From contig NZ_JBBIAB010000005.1 in the NCBI RefSeq assembly GCF_039634785.1, positions 186,001 through 250,000 on the forward strand: 64,000 nucleotides of DNA. Direction: 5' to 3'. The position numbers and the translations under genes were made by a program. The stretch's first letter is position 1, and the number at the start of each line of letters is the position of its first letter. The notes under the pieces were generated by a model. That model saw nothing but the letters and a program-made list of their open reading frames with translations. It was not told the DNA's origin and did not search any database. Shown here piece after piece: positions 5,725 through 35,859 of this stretch. This stretch comes from Tistrella mobilis (GTDB lineage: Bacteria; Pseudomonadota; Alphaproteobacteria; Tistrellales; Tistrellaceae).

Positions 5725-6573
5725 TCAGGCGTAGCGGCGGAAGAGGGCGATCAGTTGCCCCTGCACCTTCACCTGATCCGGCCGGTAGATCCGGGTTTCG
5801 TAGTGCTGGTTCGCAGGCTCCAGCGCCACCGACTGCCCCCGCCGGCGCAGGCGCTTCAGCGTTGCCTCGCCGCCATCGATCAGCGCGACGACGATGGTGC
5901 CGTTGTCGGCGGTATCGGTGCGGCGGATGATGACGGTGTCGCCGTTCATGATACCGGCCTCGATCATCGAATCGCCTTCGACCTCGAGCGCAAAATACTC
6001 AGATCCGGCCGGAATCATGGTCGCCGGCACCTCGACGGTCCGGTCCCCGTCGGACAGCGCCTCAATGGGGGTACCGGCGGCGATCTTGCCGTAAAGTGGC
6101 AGCACCACATTGCCGTTGTCGTCCGAACGACCGGTGCGCGGCGGCGCATTCAACGGCGGTCGGGTCAGGCTGCGAAAGCGCTGGGGCTGAAGCTGGGGGT
6201 CCTGCGCGGCGACGGGCGCCCGCCCGGTGCCGATTTCGACCAGACGCGGCCCGCGCGGAGCCACGGGTGGGGTGACGAAGGGGTTGGCCGAGGCCAGACT
6301 GGCCGGTGCCGTAGAGGGGCTGTCACCCTGGCTCTGCCCCGGCATCTGGAACGGCCCGCCATCCGGCAGGCGGATGACTTCGATCGCCCGGGCACGATGG
6401 GCAAGCCTGCGGATGAACCCGCGCTCTTCAAGCCCAAGGATGAGGCGATGGATGCCTGACTTGGACTTAAGGTCGAGCGCGTCCTTCATTTCTTCGAAAG
6501 ACGGCGCCACCCCCGTGGCCCGCACCCGGTCCAGGATGAACCGCAGCAATTCGTGCTGCTTGCGTGTGAGCAC
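5725..6573 (-). CDS. lexA: LexA repressor, long-linker form
   Basis: This is the SOS-response repressor, cleaved autocatalytically when RecA filaments form. I chose the GTG at 6573 because GGGAGG sits five bases upstream and the protein then begins at the family consensus LTRKQHELL. The frame opens nine codons earlier. The product is 282 residues: winged helix-turn-helix at about 1-68, linker at about 70-155, S24 peptidase domain at about 158-282. The cleavage bond is A166-G167 (YGKIAAGTP), the nucleophile S202 (EGDSMIEAG) and the general base K240 (GEATLKRL). The usual LexA is about 200-240 residues, and the excess here is Pro/Ala/Gly-rich linker. It lies downstream of moeA but 249 bases away, so it probably has its own promoter. 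Confidence 0.95.
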
Positions 6574-9418: not shown

Positions 9419-10459
9419 TCAGCCCTCCCGGCCGTTGGTGATCGCGATGACCCGGTCCAGAACCGCCTTGGCGCGGCCCTGATCCAGGGCGTCGCGGGCC
9501 ATGGCGATGCCCTGGCCGACATCGCCGGCAACGCCGGCCACCAGCAGGGCGGCACCGGCATTCAGCAGGGCGATGTCGCGGAGCGCGCCGGGCGTGCCGT
9601 CCAGCATCGCCAGGATCGCCGCGGCATTGGTCTGGGCGTCACCGCCCTTCAGCGCCTCTGCCGGATGCCGGGTGAGACCGAACATCTCGGGCGAGACCGT
9701 GAAGCTGGTGACCTTGCCGTCCTTCAGCTCCGACACGGCGGTCTCGTCGGTGACCGTGATCTCGTCGAGCCCGTCGCGACCATGGACCACCCAGGCGCGT
9801 TCCGAGCCCAGATTGCGCAGCACCTGAGCGACCGGCTCCACCCAGCGCTCGGCGAAGACGCCGATCAACTGGCGTGTGGCGCCCGCCGGATTGGCGAGGG
9901 GGCCCAGCAGATTAAAGATGGTGCGCGTGCCCAGCTCCACCCGGGGGCCGGCGACGTTCAGCATGGCGGCGTGGTGGCGCGGCGCCATCAGGAAGCAGAA
10001 ACCGGCATCGCGTCCCGCGCGTTCCACCCGCTCCAGATCGGCTTCGATATTGAGCCCCAGCGCCTTGAGCACGTCGGCCGAGCCGGATTTGGAGGAAAGG
10101 GCACGGTTGCCATGCTTGGCCACCGGCACGCCGCAGGCCGCCACGATCAGCGCGGCGGCGGTCGAGATGTTGTAGGTGCCGCGCGCATCGCCGCCGGTAC
10201 CGCAGGTGTCGATCGCCCCGGCCGGCACCCGGACGGTGGTGGCCTTGGCCCGCATCACCTCGGCGCCTGCGGTGATTTCCTCGACCGTCTCGCCGCGCAC
10301 GCGGAGTGCCATCAGGAAACCGCCGATCTGCGCCGGCGTCGCCTCGCCGCCCATCATCAGCCGGAAAGCCTGGCGGGCTTCCTCGCGGGTCAGGGCATGG
10401 CCGTCGGCGGTGCGGGCGATCAGCGCCCGGAAATCCGGGCTGGTGGTGTCGGAAGTCAT
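9419..10459 (-). CDS. trpD: Anthranilate phosphoribosyltransferase
   Basis: TrpD transfers phosphoribose from PRPP to anthranilate. It has 346 residues, the usual length, starting [17 protein letters not shown]. The PRPP-binding [19 protein letters not shown] and the [21 protein letters not shown] segment define the family. The start ATGA overlaps the trpG stop by four bases, and trpC follows after four bases, so the three genes form a tight operon. Confidence 0.95.
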
Positions 10460-28524: not shown

Positions 28525-29364
28525 GTGGCCGGCCTGAAAACCATCATTGAACGACGAATGCCCCGGCTCTATGCCCGGTTGATCGATTTCCGCGATCGCA
28601 TGGCCCCCGATTACGGCGAAAAGGAACTGGCGTTGGTGCCGATTCTGGCTGAGGCGGATGCCGACGCCTATGACATCGGTGCCAATCACGGTGCCTACAC
28701 GGCCCCCATGCTGCAGGCTGCCGGACGCGTCGTGGCCTTCGAGCCCAACCCCACCATGGGCAAGGTGCTGAAGACCCGGTTTGCCCGCGAATTGCGGGAG
28801 GGGCGGCTGGTGTTGATGCCGATGGCGCTGGGCGATGCCGAGGGGGAGGCGGTGCTGCATGTTCCCGAGGCCGGATCCGGTCTCGCCTCCATGAAGGAGG
28901 AGGCGGTGCGAAGCGTCAGCACGCCCGGGATGCTGCATATTGCCGTTGCCGTCCGGCGGCTCGACGATCTCAAATCCGAGATCGGCCGTGGCCGGCGTGT
29001 GGGCTTTGTGAAGATTGACGTCGAGGGGTTCGAAGGCACGGCACTTCGTGGTGCGGTCGAAACCCTGAAGACCCATCAACCCAGCCTGCTGATCGAGGCG
29101 GAGGAGCGTCACACGCCGGGTACCCTGGCCGAACTTCAGGCTTTGCTGGGACCGATCGGCTATCGTGGTCTCTACCTGCTCGACGGCCGTCTGCATGACA
29201 TGCCGGGCTTCGATATTGCCCGGCTCCAGGATCGCTCGGCCTTGAATGCAGAGGGAACCCGCCGGCTGCCCGACAGGGTCTACGTCAACAATTTCATCTT
29301 CGTCGCACGGCCCGAGCCGCTGGCCCGGCTGGAGGCGGCTTACGGCCCGGTGGTCTCTGCCTGA
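28525..29364 (+). CDS. FkbM-family methyltransferase
   Basis: A 279-residue SAM-dependent methyltransferase starting at GTG (28525) with GAGGG eleven bases upstream. The SAM-binding motif is YDIGANHGAYT, with the acidic FEPNP after the next strand, and the later FVKIDVEGFEGTALRGA segment is diagnostic of FkbM. Members methylate hydroxyl groups of polyketides or sugars; its place next to exopolysaccharide genes suggests a glycan substrate, which is inference. It converges on the GH18 gene. Confidence 0.85.
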   Translation: MAGLKTIIERRMPRLYARLIDFRDRMAPDYGEKELALVPILAEADADAYDIGANHGAYTAPMLQAAGRVVAFEPNPTMGKVLKTRFARELREGRLVLMPMALGDAEGEAVLHVPEAGSGLASMKEEAVRSVSTPGMLHIAVAVRRLDDLKSEIGRGRRVGFVKIDVEGFEGTALRGAVETLKTHQPSLLIEAEERHTPGTLAELQALLGPIGYRGLYLLDGRLHDMPGFDIARLQDRSALNAEGTRRLPDRVYVNNFIFVARPEPLARLEAAYGPVVSA

Positions 29365-29385: not shown

Positions 29386-30405
29386 TTAAGGGAGAACCGC
29401 ATCGCATCCGTCGCGGCCGAAGCCCTCGCAGACGGCGCGCAGCATCATGCCACCGCTGGGTGTTGCGGCACTTGGGCCCGAGGGCGGTGTGCCAAGCATG
29501 CCATAGACCATCACCCCGGCCTGCTCCTGGTCTTTCAGGCGCGCGGCAAGGTCGCGAATGGCATCGATCGCCGGAACAGGCTGACCGGTCGGGTCAGGGG
29601 GCACGATCAGCCCAAGTGCCAGCGGCCCGTCCCAGATCGCCCGATAGGCTGCGAAGGCGCGTTCCGGATTGTAGGAGGGGCCGGCGGCATAGGCCATGAT
29701 GGCCACCAGGTCGACGGCGGCGGCTGCCTCGCGGTCGCGACCCAACCACAGCATGCTGCCGGTATAGGGGCCGCCGGGCGGCTCGGTCTGAAAGGCGCCG
29801 CTGCCATAGGCGCCCGTGCTCCAGCCAGGGATGCTCAGCATCATCGGGCGTGGAAGCACCGCGCGTGTGTCTGCGATCAGCCTGGACCAGGTGAGATCCG
29901 TGCGACAGACGACGGTGGGGCCCCTGCGCGCCTCGGCCGTCTGGCAATCCGGTTTTGCCGGCTCGTAATCCAGGTCGACGCCGTCGAGCCCAAGATCGGT
30001 GACCAGACGTGCCAGGGCCGCGGGATCATAGCGGCGCCAGCCGTCGACATAGCCGGACCCGCCGACCGCCAGCAGCACCTTCATCGCGGGTGCGCGTGCT
30101 TTCAGCGCCCGGACGGCATCGGCGAGGACGGGGCCGGGGACCGGCGCCTGCAGCCCCGTCTCGGTGAGGTCCAGCCCGCCTCGGTAAACGAGGTCCGGTT
30201 TGACGAAACCCAGCACCTGCACATCGACATGGTCCGGCGTCATCGCCAGACGCGTGGCGCTGCCGAGTGCCACGGGTATCTCTTCCCAGCTTTCGTAATA
30301 GGCCATCGAGAAGGGCTGGGGAAGCGTGACCCGCTCGGTGCCAGAGGCCGCCTGCGCGACCAGAAGACCGATCGTCGTCAACAGAAGGGTGCGCATCGTC
30401 TGCAT
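29386..30405 (-). CDS. Secreted glycoside hydrolase family 18 (chitinase-like) protein
   Basis: The product is 339 residues from the ATG at 30405; this ATG overlaps the stop of the sugar-transferase gene (TGATG), indicating coupling. A signal peptide covers residues 1 to about 22 (LLLTTIGLLVAQAASG). The GH18 catalytic motif DxxDxDxE is complete: D141, D144, D146, E148 in LDGVDLDYEP. A substrate-cleft segment IMAYAAGPSYNPERAF follows. GH18 enzymes cut beta-1,4-GlcNAc polymers by substrate-assisted catalysis. In a polysaccharide cluster it may trim the exported glycan rather than chitin, which is inference. Confidence 0.82.
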   Translation of the reverse strand: MQTMRTLLLTTIGLLVAQAASGTERVTLPQPFSMAYYESWEEIPVALGSATRLAMTPDHVDVQVLGFVKPDLVYRGGLDLTETGLQAPVPGPVLADAVRALKARAPAMKVLLAVGGSGYVDGWRRYDPAALARLVTDLGLDGVDLDYEPAKPDCQTAEARRGPTVVCRTDLTWSRLIADTRAVLPRPMMLSIPGWSTGAYGSGAFQTEPPGGPYTGSMLWLGRDREAAAAVDLVAIMAYAAGPSYNPERAFAAYRAIWDGPLALGLIVPPDPTGQPVPAIDAIRDLAARLKDQEQAGVMVYGMLGTPPSGPSAATPSGGMMLRAVCEGFGRDGCDAVLP

Positions 30406-31265
30406 CAGAACACATCCCGTCCGGCCATGCCGCCCAACAAAGTCCGGGCCATGATCCGGATATCGAACCACAGCGACCAGTTCTCGATATATTGCAGGTC
30501 CAGTTCGACCCCACGCCGGGCCTTGTCGGCGTCGTGGATGCCGCCGCGCATGCCGTTGATCTGTCCCCAGCCGGTGATGCCGGGCTTCACCCGGTGGCGG
30601 GCGGCATATTCCTGCACCGTCTCGAAATAGGTGCGCTCTCCGACCAGCATATTGGGGACATGGGCGCGGGGGCCGACCACCGACATCTCACCGCGCAGGA
30701 CATTGAACAGCTGCGGCAACTCGTCGATGCTGGTTTTGCGAATGAAGCGACCGATCCGGGTGATGCGCGGATTGTCCATCGGCGTGCCGCGCGACCCGTC
30801 GTCGGTGGGATCGACGGTCATCGACCGGAATTTGAACATGTCGAATTCACGGCCGTTGAAACCGACCCGCCGCTGCCGGAACAGGATCGGCCCGGGGCTG
30901 TCGAGCCGCACCAGGATCGCGACCACCAGCAGCAGTGGGGACAGCAGCAGAACGGCGATGCCGGCCACGATATAGTCCAGGATGCTCTTCAGAATTGCGT
31001 CGGTGCCCTTGAGCGGCCGGCGTGCGACCTGAAGAAAGGGCAGGCCGCCGACATTGAACAGCTGTGCACCGCGCAGATTGATCCAGTCCGCCTCGATCGG
31101 CAGCAGCACATCGGCCGGTATCGCGCAGAGTTTCCGCATCATTTCGGCAATGTGCTGGCCGGCGCGCCAGGGCAGGGCGATGATCACCACGTCCACGCGT
31201 TCCTGACGCGCCCGACGGGCTAGTTCATCGACGCCGTGAGTGACGGTGAGGCCCGCAATTTCCAC
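30405..31265 (-). CDS. Undecaprenyl-phosphate sugar phosphotransferase (WcaJ/WbaP/ExoY type), 5'-truncated
   Basis: The frame gives 286 residues from a GTG at 31265. The catalytic domain is intact: a membrane helix (LDYIVAGIAVLLLSPLLLVV), then RRVGFNGREFDMFKFRSM, SIDELPQLFNVLRGEMSVVGPRA, and GWGQINGMRG near the end. Full-length relatives have about 460-510 residues with four or five N-terminal helices and a nucleotide-binding-like domain. Here the similarity begins inside that domain at EIAGLTVTHGVDELARRAR, so roughly 180-220 residues are missing. The loss coincides with the truncated start of the Wzc-like gene on the other strand. ExoY-like enzymes work with the catalytic domain alone, so activity is possible. 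Confidence 0.8.
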   Translation of the reverse strand: MEIAGLTVTHGVDELARRARQERVDVVIIALPWRAGQHIAEMMRKLCAIPADVLLPIEADWINLRGAQLFNVGGLPFLQVARRPLKGTDAILKSILDYIVAGIAVLLLSPLLLVVAILVRLDSPGPILFRQRRVGFNGREFDMFKFRSMTVDPTDDGSRGTPMDNPRITRIGRFIRKTSIDELPQLFNVLRGEMSVVGPRAHVPNMLVGERTYFETVQEYAARHRVKPGITGWGQINGMRGGIHDADKARRGVELDLQYIENWSLWFDIRIMARTLLGGMAGRDVF

Positions 31266-31277
31266 TGCGCGACGTGC
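31262..31277. other. Junction of two 5'-truncated divergent genes
   Basis: Leftward similarity to sugar transferases runs up to about 31262 and rightward similarity to Wzc-like proteins begins by about 31277. No intergenic sequence, promoter or ribosome site lies between. This looks like a deletion or inversion breakpoint, or an assembly join. Confidence 0.6.
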
Positions 31278-32848
31278 TGCGCGATCTGGCGCGACACGGC
31301 TCCATCTATGCCAATCCGCGATCGCCCTTCCTGGAACAGGAAGCCGAAAAGTTTCGCCTGCAGATCGACCAGCTGCAGCGAAACCTGGCCGATGCCAAGG
31401 CGAAGTATAAGGTCCTTAATCTGGAGCAGGAGATCCTTCTGGCGGTGAACCAGGAGGACAGCATCATTCAACGCAGGCGCCATGTGATGGAGCGGCGCGA
31501 AGCGCTGCGCATCGAGGTGGCGAATGCGCAGGAGCGGCTGGCCAAGCTTCCGGAACGGGTGTTCGACTTCACGGAGCGGACGAACCGGACCGACAATTAC
31601 GAGGCGCGAAACGCCCGTATCAAGCTGCAGCTTGAACGGGACCAGTTGCGGGCGCGCTATCAGGACAACCATCCGCGCCTGCAGGAGATCGAGCGCCAGA
31701 TCAAGACGCTGGAACAGTTTCAGGAGAAGGAACGGCCGGTCTATTTTGCCGACCGGACCGTTCGCAATCCCGCCATCGCGTTCCTGACCAACCATCTGAT
31801 CCAGATTCAGCTGGAAGAGGAGGCGACGGCTCGTCAGCTGGAAGAGCTGGAGCGTCAGCGTGAGGTTGCGCGCATGCGCATCGCGGAACTGCGCGAGGGC
31901 GAGCAGGTGATCGGCGACCTCACGCGCAGCCTGGACGTGGTCGACAAGCTTTATCGGCAGGCGCGGGAACGCGCTGAAACGGCCGGCCTGGAAGAGGCAG
32001 CTGCCGACGAACGGGCGTCGAATGTGCGCGTGGTCGAATATGCTGATGCGCCTGCACGCGGAAGCAGCCAGGCGGCCAATCTGGTGGCGGCCGGTCTGTT
32101 CGGCGGCCTGCTTCTTGCCGCCGTTGCGGGGCTGGCGGCGGCCTGGAACCGCCGGGTATATCTCCTGCCGCTGGAGGTGGAGCGCGGGCTTGGGCTGCCG
32201 GTTCTCGCGACCTTCAACGAGGCCGGCGGCTTCGTGGGCGGTGGCGCCCAGGAGCAGATGATCTATTTCGTCGGGCGTCTGCTTGCGGGCCGTGAAGACG
32301 GCCAGTCGCTCAGATCGATTCAGGTCGTCTCCTCCGGTGAAACCGAAAACCGGGAGGGGTTCTCCAGGGCGCTGGCCACCGAACTGGCCGAAGGTCATGG
32401 CCGTCGGACGCTTCTGGTCGATCTCGATCGCGACGGCAATGGTCAGGCCGGCGCATTGCGCGCCGGGGATGCTGTTGAGCTGGGTGTCGACGGTATCCGG
32501 GCGGCGCCGACACGGATCCCCCGCCTTGACGTGACCGTGGATGCGGCGGGGTCGACCCTGGGGCGCATGCGTACCGAAGTGGGGGAGCTGGGCTCGCTGA
32601 TCGAAGGACTTGCCGGCCGCTACGACTTCGTCGTTGTCGATGCGCCGGCGACCCGGAACAGTTTCGTTGCCTTGCGGCTTGCTCCCGTCGTCGACGGCTC
32701 CATCCTTGTCGTACGTGCCGAACACACCCGCGCGCCGGTGGCCGGCAACACGCGCGATCAGATTCTGGATGCCGGCGGCGATATGCTTGGAGCTGTGGTG
32801 ACCGGCCGCCGATTCCACATTCCGAGGGCGATCTATCGATGGCTGTGA
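31274..32848 (+). CDS. Wzc/GumC-like polysaccharide chain-length and export protein, 5'-truncated, kinase domain degenerate
   Basis: The frame gives 524 residues from a GTG at 31274 with no ribosome site. It opens in the periplasmic coiled coil (EQEAEKFRLQIDQLQRNL) and continues through YQDNHPRLQEIERQIKTLEQF, a second membrane helix near residues 273-298 (LVAAGLFGGLLLAAVAGLAA) and a cytoplasmic domain. The first membrane helix and the Wzz domain (about 170-190 residues) are absent. In the cytoplasmic domain TLLVDLDRD and FVVVDAP look like Walker A' and B, but the Walker A site reads SSGETENREGFS without GKS/T, and there is no Tyr-rich tail. A functional tyrosine kinase is therefore unlikely. 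Confidence 0.78.
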   Translation: MLRDLARHGSIYANPRSPFLEQEAEKFRLQIDQLQRNLADAKAKYKVLNLEQEILLAVNQEDSIIQRRRHVMERREALRIEVANAQERLAKLPERVFDFTERTNRTDNYEARNARIKLQLERDQLRARYQDNHPRLQEIERQIKTLEQFQEKERPVYFADRTVRNPAIAFLTNHLIQIQLEEEATARQLEELERQREVARMRIAELREGEQVIGDLTRSLDVVDKLYRQARERAETAGLEEAAADERASNVRVVEYADAPARGSSQAANLVAAGLFGGLLLAAVAGLAAAWNRRVYLLPLEVERGLGLPVLATFNEAGGFVGGGAQEQMIYFVGRLLAGREDGQSLRSIQVVSSGETENREGFSRALATELAEGHGRRTLLVDLDRDGNGQAGALRAGDAVELGVDGIRAAPTRIPRLDVTVDAAGSTLGRMRTEVGELGSLIEGLAGRYDFVVVDAPATRNSFVALRLAPVVDGSILVVRAEHTRAPVAGNTRDQILDAGGDMLGAVVTGRRFHIPRAIYRWL

Positions 32849-33612
32849 TGCGGATCGCAAGGAACTGGGGGCGGCTTCTGGCTGCCATGGGGCTGATGCT
32901 GATGCTTGGCGCCTGCGAGACCGGCCAGGCCATTCGTCCGGTCGCGGCGGACTCGCCCCTCGCCTCCGGCACCTATAATCCGATCGCCTTCGCCGACTGG
33001 ACCGACGAATTGCCGCCCTATCGCATTGGCGAAGGGGACAAGCTCAAGGTCGGATTCTGGCGGACGCCGGAGTTCGATGAAGAGGTGACGGTCCGGCCCG
33101 ACGGCTATATCTCGCTCAAATCTGCCGGCGAGGTTCTGGTGGCGGACCTGACCCCGGCCCAGGCCTCCGAGCGTGTGGCCGGCCAGTCGACGCGGATCCT
33201 GAGGGATCCGGACGTGAATGTCGCCGTCGACGACGCCATTTCCGCCCGGGTCTATGTCGGCGGCGACGTCCGTGCGCCGGGGGTGTATCGCATCGTCGGT
33301 CGCATCGGTGTTGCCGAGGCCCTGACTCTGGCGGGTGGCATCACGCCCAATGGCCGGATGAACGAGATCGTGCTGATCCGACGGGATCCACAGGATCGAC
33401 CGATGATGCGCACCGTGGATCTGCGTGGGCTTCTGGAAGGCCGGTTGATCGACATTCCGATCGTGCAGGGCGACATCATCTTCGTCCCGCGCAGCCGGAT
33501 TGCAGAGGTCAATCTGTGGGTCGCGCAGTTCATCGAGGGTGTCGTGCCGTTCCAGCGGGTCTTCCAGTATTCGATCACCCGCAACGACACGACGAAGAAC
33601 ACGCCGTTCTAG
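32848..33612 (+). CDS. Wza-like outer-membrane polysaccharide export lipoprotein
   Basis: The product is 254 residues from the ATG at 32848, whose A overlaps the preceding stop (TGATG). An ATG at 32839 would add three residues. A lipoprotein signal ends at C23 (LMLGAC). The Poly_export domain follows (YRIGEGDKLKVGFWRTPEFDEEVTVRPDG), then SLBB-type segments (ARVYVGGDVRAPGVYRI, ALTLAGGITPNGRM). It is smaller than E. coli Wza (about 380 residues), like many GumB-type exporters. It would form the outer-membrane channel for the polysaccharide, coupled to the Wzc-like protein. Confidence 0.88.
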   Translation: MRIARNWGRLLAAMGLMLMLGACETGQAIRPVAADSPLASGTYNPIAFADWTDELPPYRIGEGDKLKVGFWRTPEFDEEVTVRPDGYISLKSAGEVLVADLTPAQASERVAGQSTRILRDPDVNVAVDDAISARVYVGGDVRAPGVYRIVGRIGVAEALTLAGGITPNGRMNEIVLIRRDPQDRPMMRTVDLRGLLEGRLIDIPIVQGDIIFVPRSRIAEVNLWVAQFIEGVVPFQRVFQYSITRNDTTKNTPF

Positions 33613-33631: not shown

Positions 33632-34426
33632 ATGACCGCCGAGACCGCCTCCACGCCGGCCGCGGTGCCGCGGATCGACTTTCTCGGACTGGAGATCAGC
33701 GATCTAGACTGCGACCCGGCCGCAGCCGTGATCGCCGCGCGGGATCCTGCTGCCGGTTTCGCCTATGTGGTCACGCCGAACGCCCAGCACATGGTCCGGC
33801 TGGCGCGTGGTGCGCCGGCGTTCCAGCACGCCTATGAGGGCGCCTGGCTGGTGTTGTCCGATGGCAATGTGGTCCGCCGCTTTTCGCGCCTGGTGCTGGG
33901 ACAGGCACTGCCCCACGCCTCGGGAGCGGATGTGACCAGCCGCCTGTTTAACCATCATGTCCGTCCGGATGATGCCATCATGGTGGTGGGTGGCGACGAT
34001 CGGCTCATGACGGCGTTGCGCAGCCAGTTCGGTCTGACCAACCTTCATCAGCATGTGCCGCCGATGGGGTTCATCCGCGATCCGGCGGCGGTGGAGGCTG
34101 CGGTGACGGCGGTCCGGTCCCGGCCGGCGCGCTATGTCTTCATTGCCGTCGGGTCACCGCAATCCGAGCTGCTTGCACGGCAGATCGCGGATGCGGGCGG
34201 GGCGACCGGAACCGGGTTGTGCATCGGATCCTCTCTCCTCTTCGTCACCGGGCTGGTTCGCCGTGCGCCGGCCATCGTCCGCAAGCTCGGCCTTGAAGGC
34301 GGCTGGCGGCTGATGCTGTCGCCGGTAGGCCATTTCCGCCGGGTGTTTCACGAGAGCCTGCCCATCCTCGGCATCATCATCCGCGCGCGATTTGGTGGCC
34401 GCGGCATTCTGCAGCGACCGTCGTGA
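33632..34426 (+). CDS. WecG/TagA/CpsF-family glycosyltransferase (GT26)
   Basis: The product is 264 residues from the ATG at 33632, with GGGAGG upstream; the open frame begins earlier inside the export gene. The TagA-type catalytic residues are visible as T48 and N50 (VVTPNAQHMV) and D77 (LVLSDGNV), followed by RYVFIAVGSPQSELLARQIAD, the nucleotide-sugar-binding area. Members add N-acetylmannosamine or a related uronic acid to undecaprenyl-linked glycans, consistent with repeat-unit assembly in this cluster. The exact sugar cannot be read from the sequence. Confidence 0.87.
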   Translation: MTAETASTPAAVPRIDFLGLEISDLDCDPAAAVIAARDPAAGFAYVVTPNAQHMVRLARGAPAFQHAYEGAWLVLSDGNVVRRFSRLVLGQALPHASGADVTSRLFNHHVRPDDAIMVVGGDDRLMTALRSQFGLTNLHQHVPPMGFIRDPAAVEAAVTAVRSRPARYVFIAVGSPQSELLARQIADAGGATGTGLCIGSSLLFVTGLVRRAPAIVRKLGLEGGWRLMLSPVGHFRRVFHESLPILGIIIRARFGGRGILQRPS

Positions 34427-35859
34427 GAACCGGCGGCGGAAAGAAAGCGGTTCTGTCGCGCCGTCGCGGCCGGGTCGTGGCACCCGGCCCCGCTGTCGAT
34501 GCGGCTATCTCCGCCGATCTGGCAGAGAGGGTCCTTGCGACCTCCGGGGGGGCGGACCGGTCGACCGGGCGGCTCGAGATCCTGCTGCTCGTCGCCGCAT
34601 TGCCGATGTTCGGGCAGGTCTTCCACTACATCATCGACGCGGGGCCGTTCTATTATCTCTCCAAGGCCTGGCCGTTTCTGACCCTGCCACTGGCACTCCA
34701 CGGCGCCTTCCGGCTGAGCGGACGTCATCATCCGCTCTATGCCATCGTGCTCGGCTATGTCATCGGGATCACCCCGGCCCTGTCGATGCTCTGGCTGGGC
34801 AATGCCTTTATCGACGCGTTCGGCACGACGATCAAAGTCTGGCCGATCACCTATTATTTCAGCGTGCTCTCGACGCTGGCACTGCTGCGTCCGTCGCCGG
34901 ATCTGCTGCGCCGGATCCTTCTGTCTTTCGGTGTGGCGACCTTCCTGCTGATGTGGCTGCTCTGGTTGATCGTGCCCCGCACGCACTATGCGGTGGATGC
35001 CACACAGAGCAAGCTGTTCATGTACGAACTGGAGCGCGGCTACCGCATCTACATGCCGATGGTCTTCGGCGTGCTCTCGCTGCTTTATCTCGTCCGACGG
35101 ATGAGCGTCTCTCCGCGGCTGCTCTATGTGGCGCTGTATCTGGCCGGGCTGATGACGATGGTGCTCATCTTCAAGCAGCGGATCAGCATTCTGGCTCTGC
35201 TGCTGATCAGCGCCTGGGTGCTCTACCGCAATCTGCCCAAGCTGCCCCGATCGCTGGTGACGCTGGGGCTCGGGATCGGTGTGCTGGTCTTGGCGATCAC
35301 GGTTCTGATCCCGGCGGTCGAGGCCGTGGAGAAGAGCCTCGGCAACTCGCTCTCGATCCGGGCCCGGTCGCTGTCCCTGGCATTCGACTACATGCTGGCG
35401 GATGTCTGGCGCTGGCTCTTCGGCGTGGGGTCGATCACCCGCTTCAGCGCGGTGACCCTTTTCGACCTCTTCGGCACCAATCACTTCTATCTGGCGGATA
35501 TCGGCTGGGTCGGCATCGTCTTTGAATATGGCGTGGTCGGGGCGCTGCTGATCTTCGGTCTTTATGTCGCGGGGTTGCGCGACGCCTATGGCCGGCGGGC
35601 GCGGGCGCCCGAGCGGCAGCTCGCCGACCCGCGTGCCGAAGCCATGGCAGCGGCTCTCGGCGATTATGTGCTGTTCCTGCTGGCGGCGAGCGCCGTCTAT
35701 TCGGCCGTCTTCACGCCGGGGGAACTCGCGACGGTGACGGCTCTTCTCGTCTATCTGCGGGGGTTCTGGTCGACCCAGGCTGCAATGGGGCCGCGCACGA
35801 CGCACCAGCCGGACGAGCATGTCCCGGTGCCCGGCCGTGGTGGCGTCGTCCGGCTCTGA
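34423..35859 (+). CDS. Polysaccharide polymerase / O-antigen ligase-like membrane protein
   Basis: A 478-residue protein with about ten hydrophobic segments starts at a GTG that overlaps the previous stop (GTGA). Residues 1-50 are basic and probably cytoplasmic. The later part (SLGNSLSIRARSLSLAFDYMLADVWRWLFGVGS) matches the layout around the large periplasmic loop of Wzy polymerases and EpsK/O-antigen ligase-like proteins, with NHFYLADIGWVGIVFEYGVVGALLIFG following as in that family. It would polymerise lipid-linked repeat units. Sequence similarity in this group is weak, so Wzy is inferred mainly from topology and context. It converges on ureG with six bases between stops. Confidence 0.7.
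   Translation: MRTGGGKKAVLSRRRGRVVAPGPAVDAAISADLAERVLATSGGADRSTGRLEILLLVAALPMFGQVFHYIIDAGPFYYLSKAWPFLTLPLALHGAFRLSGRHHPLYAIVLGYVIGITPALSMLWLGNAFIDAFGTTIKVWPITYYFSVLSTLALLRPSPDLLRRILLSFGVATFLLMWLLWLIVPRTHYAVDATQSKLFMYELERGYRIYMPMVFGVLSLLYLVRRMSVSPRLLYVALYLAGLMTMVLIFKQRISILALLLISAWVLYRNLPKLPRSLVTLGLGIGVLVLAITVLIPAVEAVEKSLGNSLSIRARSLSLAFDYMLADVWRWLFGVGSITRFSAVTLFDLFGTNHFYLADIGWVGIVFEYGVVGALLIFGLYVAGLRDAYGRRARAPERQLADPRAEAMAAALGDYVLFLLAASAVYSAVFTPGELATVTALLVYLRGFWSTQAAMGPRTTHQPDEHVPVPGRGGVVRL

Follow-up and report, generated by a model that had tools for sequence, protein, structure and literature searches.

A single deletion has probably removed the centre of an exopolysaccharide locus in a genome of Tistrella mobilis

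The DNA analysed here, referred to as the window, is a stretch of 64,000 nucleotides (positions 186,001–250,000 of contig C5) from a genome of Tistrella mobilis. The genome has 6.16 Mb in 62 contigs and is listed as 100% complete, with 0.53 contamination. The window has a GC content of 67.7% and contains no Ns. It carries a set of genes for an exopolysaccharide of the Wzx/Wzy type, which are listed in Table 1. In pathways of this type, WcaJ starts the unit by transferring a first sugar phosphate to undecaprenyl phosphate, and the second sugar is added by WecG; once Wzx has flipped the unit, Wzy polymerises it, and Wzc together with Wza controls length and export. The wza gene overlaps the wzc remnant, and is presumed to lie in the same operon. 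The start of wecG is taken to be an ATG inside the 33,500 open reading frame.

Table 1 Features of the exopolysaccharide locus, with positions in the window
Feature	Position	Strand	Basis
FkbM-family methyltransferase, at the left end of the region and present in G001 too	28525..29364	+	Profile, locus comparison
Glycoside hydrolase 18-like gene, downstream of wcaJ; presumed start	29386..30405	-	Weak PF00704 match
wcaJ-type undecaprenyl-phosphate hexose-1-phosphate transferase, 3' remnant, 286 aa	30405..31265	-	Pfam/NCBIfam, full L018 protein, hydropathy
Wzc-like polysaccharide copolymerase, 3' remnant, 524 aa from GTG	31274..32848	+	ORF, relative's protein, profiles, hydropathy
Probable deletion junction; 3-bp overlap ATC, assignable to either flank	31284..31286		blastn ends and base-level alignment
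Wza-type polysaccharide export protein (Poly_export and SLBB)	32839..33612	+	Pfam
WecG/TagA/CpsF family glycosyltransferase	33632..34426	+	PF03808; NCBIfam all below curated cut-offs
O-antigen ligase/Wzy-like membrane protein, overlaps wecG	34423..35859	+	Weak Wzy_C match below Pfam cut-off; homologues in same cluster elsewhere

The PF00704 match of the glycoside hydrolase 18 (GH18)-like gene is below the cut-off in the window and above it in G040, one of the genomes compared below. A gene of this kind is also found beside wcaJ in six of the nine other loci compared (KA081020-065, G040, G351, G183, G318 and G170), and is apparently part of such polysaccharide clusters.

The two divergent genes in the middle of the locus are both truncated. 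For the wcaJ remnant, the first usable start is the GTG at 31,265, with homology running on to 31,286. The full protein in T. mobilis KA081020-065 has 478 residues, and codons 1–185 are lost in the window. With TIGR03023 (453 positions), the match of the remnant begins only at 174 and scores 360 bits, below the cut-off of 410.75; that of the intact KA081020-065 protein begins at position 2 and, at 425.5 bits, is above it. The broader TIGR03025 is still passed by the remnant (339.8 bits, cut-off 295.55). Most of the PF13727 (CoA_binding_3) domain is gone, only positions 120–173 of 175 being matched, and the catalytic Bac_transf domain (PF02397) is retained (1–174 of 179, 222.6 bits). A hydrophobic stretch at residues 99–117 is kept, and the N-terminal hydrophobic stretches are lost. 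Measured against the large monotopic phosphoglycosyl transferases (WcaJ/WbaP type), the remnant has the catalytic domain with its membrane helix, and lacks the N-terminal four-helix bundle and the PF13727 domain characteristic of the class. The HfsE model gives 249–289 of 750 bits at this locus, with 289 for the intact KA081020-065 protein.

For the wzc remnant, homology begins at 31,284, and residues 1–187 of the 707-residue KA081020-065 protein are absent. The lost part includes the first hydrophobic helix (about residues 37–55) and the whole of a Wzz-like match, which is itself weak in the full protein (PF02706, 19.2 bits, below the cut-off). The remnant has a single hydrophobic helix (270–288) and the full protein two; a Wzc-type copolymerase has two transmembrane helices around a periplasmic Wzz or coiled-coil region, an arrangement that the remnant lacks. 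A degenerate kinase-like domain is retained. These results bear out the description in an earlier note on this DNA, in which a WcaJ without its N-terminal membrane and nucleotide-binding-like part and a Wzc without its first helix and Wzz domain were said to have lost their 5' ends at one shared junction.

The reference used for comparison was the complete chromosome of T. mobilis KA081020-065 (NC_017956.1), which is labelled as the same species as the genome of the window. The stretch compared, L018, wholly contains the stretch representing this strain (as G163) in the genome survey described below. A scan of contigs with the Wzc-like remnant gave 10 loci, KA081020-065 being among them with 97% over residues 5–524. 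Positions 1,974–64,000 of the window are collinear with the KA081020-065 chromosome at 96% identity in two blocks (blastn), with one large interruption (-3/+3,154 bp). By blastn and base-level alignment, the left block ends at 31,286 and the right block begins at 31,284, and the 3,154 bp absent at this point are L018 6,845–9,998. Between 29,000 and 36,000, nucleotide identity is about 87–99% in most 250-bp steps. The exopolysaccharide locus of KA081020-065 has the same genes, order and flanks as the window, but is intact, with wzx and full wcaJ and wzc. The sole other large difference from KA081020-065 in the window is at 1,826–1,973, where 148 bp stand against 1,091 bp; this place is near the left edge, and adjoins a stretch of 80% identity.

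The missing 3,154 bp comprise wcaJ codons 1–185, the whole gene for a Wzx-type flippase, the divergent intergenic region (608 bp in KA081020-065) and wzc codons 1–187. The flippase has 458 residues from a likely ATG at L018 8,831, and matches PF01943 with 47.4 bits (cut-off 28.2); the loss of this complete gene was beyond the reach of the earlier note. The Wzx query used for searches (L018:7458-8789, 444 residues) lacks the first 14 codons of the gene, and the Wzc query (L018:9437-11560) starts one codon ahead of the ATG at 9,440, from which the residue numbers are counted. On the basis of these alignments we propose, with a probability of about 0.88, that a single deletion of 3,154 bp, recent relative to the split from KA081020-065, took the centre of a Wzx/Wzy-type exopolysaccharide locus.

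A single deletion was one of three alternatives in the earlier note, and is the one that fits a same-species chromosome that is collinear on both sides and has the additional DNA exactly at the junction. Another, an inversion breakpoint, is ruled out over these 62 kb, order and strand being the same as in KA081020-065 on both flanks. The third, an assembly error or chimeric join in which the strain really carries the 3.15 kb and the assembler dropped it, has in its favour that the genome is a draft of 62 contigs, but we consider it very improbable: the 3-bp overlap at the join is far shorter than any assembly word, the window has no Ns, the genome is listed with the completeness and contamination given above, and the missing DNA is found on no contig. 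When the 3,154 bp were searched against the 62 contigs of the genome, with 40 of 268 first-pass candidates scored, there was a single match of 37 bp at 86%. The 444-residue Wzx part had no match in the genome in a search whose first pass diverged copies could escape. PF13727 occurs in the genome nowhere but in the wcaJ remnant, and PF01943 and PF13440 occur in one place each, in the same gene, which is MurJ (PF03023, 397 bits). The one PF02706 match, on contig C52, was considered as the lost Wzz half, but belongs to a different protein of 316 residues on DNA of 49.5% GC; similarly, a second sugar transferase on contig C7 is a separate short transferase and not the lost half of WcaJ. The search for the missing WcaJ and Wzz N termini suggested in the earlier note thus found them nowhere else in the genome. 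Contig C52 itself (3.2 kb, 49.5% GC) encodes Wzz-like and O-antigen-ligase-like proteins, and is a foreign island or a contaminant. Among plasmid records, 156 had matches at 60–90% identity, and in none did a single place cover 80% of the query.

A comparison of two genomes alone is without direction, and would equally allow the 3.15 kb to be an insertion in KA081020-065, with the window form ancestral. The KA081020-065 Wzc was searched in 385 genomes drawn evenly from the class (Alphaproteobacteria), with two candidates per genome scored at E 1e-20 or better, a limit that weak or short relatives could escape. Matches were found at 26 places in 23 of the 385 genomes. In 25 of the 26 places, including KA081020-065, the match begins no later than residue 39; the window's own begins at 188. 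In many of the 26 the match ends near residue 500, the copolymerase there lacking the kinase-like part. Nine loci (KA081020-065, G040, G351, G343, G183, G318, G136, G043 and G170) were also compared gene by gene, with one tblastn piece, the best, taken for each protein. All nine have a full-length Wzc and seven a full-length WcaJ, the exceptions being G170, where the match is near the end of the stretch, and G343, a 7.2-kb contig without wcaJ or wzx matches. The pair wcaJ-wzx is divergent from wzc in KA081020-065, G040 and G351, and the order differs in the other loci: in G318 and G136, wzx and wcaJ are ahead of wzc on the same strand, and no wzx was found within the 16 kb taken in G183, G043 and G170.

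Because Wzc homologues in other Alphaproteobacteria keep the N-terminus, the intact, long form is judged from these alignments to be ancestral, and it is the window that lost DNA. The chance that the 3.15 kb is an insertion is negligible, since with it two proteins reach the full length that they have in distant loci, and since G040 and G351 have a homologue of its Wzx-like gene in the corresponding place. The possibilities raised in the earlier note that the short forms are shared by close strains, or that members of the family naturally start at these residues, are answered by the same data: both proteins are long in KA081020-065, and only the window's own match among the 26 starts there.

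As to how the deletion arose, the 3-bp overlap is unremarkable, an overlap of at least 3 bp being expected in about 7% of random joins; it would fit an illegitimate deletion, by end-joining or template-switch. The sequence GCGCGACGCG is present in KA081020-065 within 25 bp of both break points; sharing of at least 10 bp, as here, occurs in about 6 of 1,000 random pairs. Simple slippage at this direct repeat was rejected, the join being out of register and both copies being kept in the window, with one changed base each. The event is a clear but ordinary pseudogenising deletion. Simple loss-of-function deletions knock out surface polysaccharides in bacterial loci; different here is that starter, flippase and copolymerase were all struck at once, along with the upstream region between the divergent genes.

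Wzc-type tyrosine autokinases carry a Walker A motif (GK[ST]) in their cytoplasmic domain. This motif is absent from the Wzc cytoplasmic domain in all nine compared loci, KA081020-065 included; at the aligned place a lone Lys is found in one of the nine (G183), and an Arg in KA081020-065. The Wzc-like family of these loci is therefore likely to be a pseudokinase fused to a copolymerase (window 32,250-32,850; L018 11,000-11,560). There is a parallel in EcpK, a tyrosine kinase-like protein of Myxococcus exopolysaccharide synthesis, which is judged to be a pseudokinase in the available part of PMC12004946. Both are kinase-like proteins in an exopolysaccharide pathway; in contrast to EcpK as described there, the kinase-like domain found here is fused to the copolymerase and is known from its sequence.

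Compared with KA081020-065, the wzc remnant has 136 synonymous and 18 nonsynonymous changes (dN/dS 0.037) and the wcaJ remnant 29 and 4 (dN/dS 0.044). Neither contains stops or indels, and both dN/dS values are within the range of twelve other genes (0 to 0.174); for flanking genes the coding limits were placed manually, and the first codons may be off. Values near 0.04, together with the open frames, imply either that the loss is recent or that the pieces are still constrained. If they have been neutral since the loss, the time elapsed is by a simple clock no more than about 11% of the branch for wzc or 20% for wcaJ, counting all nonsynonymous changes as post-loss and assuming equal branches and no recombination. 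However, dS is raised in wzc (0.44) and wecG (0.77) relative to the other genes (0.04–0.29). Part of wecG (window 33,750-34,250) has 76–78% identity to KA081020-065 in a background of 96%. Parts of the locus, likely including wecG, have probably been exchanged with other lineages, and since recombination into the locus is probable, the clock is weakened.

The locus probably no longer makes its Wzx/Wzy-type polymer. A Wzx is part of any Wzx/Wzy-dependent pathway, and by searches with the Wzx protein, PF01943 and PF13440 it is absent from the window's genome and present in KA081020-065; with the flippase gone, the polymer would be off. The coiled-coil part of the Wzc remnant should not reach the periplasm, the first transmembrane helix being absent. 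The genes wza-wecG-wzy would be cut from their native upstream region, and the WcaJ remnant, which keeps its catalytic domain, would be without its native upstream region and a visible ribosome site. By eye, there is no Shine-Dalgarno-like stretch in the 25 nt before either GTG. A promoter scan found no sigma-70-like site in 30,900–31,700, but is uninformative either way, because the intact intergenic region of KA081020-065 scans empty as well. The earlier note had stated that neither promoter nor ribosome site is left between the genes; we agree as to the ribosome site, and the scan does not speak to the promoter. Judging from position, the promoters of both gene sets would have been lost with the divergent intergenic region.

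The reading of the locus as dead needs some caution, because in the Sphingomonas prm cluster a deletion of wzx (prmI) is tabulated as still mucoid in PMC11340318. The same table gives wza-, wzz- and wecG-type deletions as EPS-negative, and WecG-type enzymes are described in that source as thought to catalyse the committed step. One might also suppose that the truncated genes are still used, as a transferase of the catalytic core only and a short Wzc-like protein expressed from new promoters. The low dN/dS and open frames of both remnants would agree with this, as would the complete Bac_transf domain; transferases with just the catalytic core are known (PglC is one), and small monotopic ones of this kind are described in the available part of PMC10942596, which also cites a title reporting that the C-terminal domain of WbaP is sufficient for catalysis. 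Continued use nevertheless seems distinctly improbable: the flippase is gone with no Wzx-type replacement by two Pfam models, the Wzc remnant has one transmembrane helix and not two, no ribosome site is seen, and a starter still active in a cell that lacks flippase and copolymerase should sequester undecaprenyl phosphate, going by the accessible text of PMC12826051.

In its parts (a WcaJ/HfsE-type starter, a WecG/HfsJ-type transferase, Wzx, Wzy, Wza and a Wzc/Wzz-type copolymerase) this kind of locus resembles the Caulobacter holdfast hfs genes and the Sphingomonas promonan prm cluster, as presented in the portion of PMC11340318 available. It differs from them in that the window is without wzx and has two truncated genes, that the HfsE score is far below the cut-off of 750 bits even in the intact KA081020-065 protein, and that it is known from its genes alone. 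No title on this locus was found in the Tistrella exopolysaccharide literature or, among the matches listed, in the Tistrella mobilis genome literature, and the word 'polysaccharide' was not found in the accessible part of PMC9964501.

A further genome labelled as the same genus, G001, has lost the locus in another way. The flanks are present, with FkbM on one side and 88–90% identity from window position 35,703 on, and 124 bp stand in place of about 5.5 kb of the window (L052, G001:C4:2368000-2380000, about 5,964–6,483). The stubs comprise the last 48 GH18 codons (65% aa), a 69-bp GH18 piece (80%) and the last 52 Wzy-like codons (88% aa). Because these stubs remain, the ancestor of G001 must have had the locus, and because the end points differ, the losses in G001 and in the window are separate. 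Two of the three Tistrella genomes seen would be disabled in this locus, by different deletions; three genomes give no rate.

It is of interest that in the E. coli colanic acid pathway, wzxC, wzc and wza are listed as sequestration-associated and wcaJ as sequestration-independent (PMC12826051, in the part available). A deletion that also hits the starter might on this ground be a milder way to lose the pathway, which we put forward as an idea only. More generally, though we think it rather unlikely, Tistrella may repeatedly drop its WecG-type locus, with flippase and copolymerase lost together with the starter or its front; loss in one step may be favoured because loss of the flippase alone would trap undecaprenyl phosphate.

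The kind of event is ordinary, and the window offers a clean example of a common form of gene loss. It defines a precise difference between strains: the locus is complete in one T. mobilis strain and hit by a single deletion in the other, and its loss in a third Tistrella genome was separate. This would provide a natural comparison for the role of the polymer in attachment, biofilm and phage reception, and would put to a small test the view that the first step is where such pathways are best closed.
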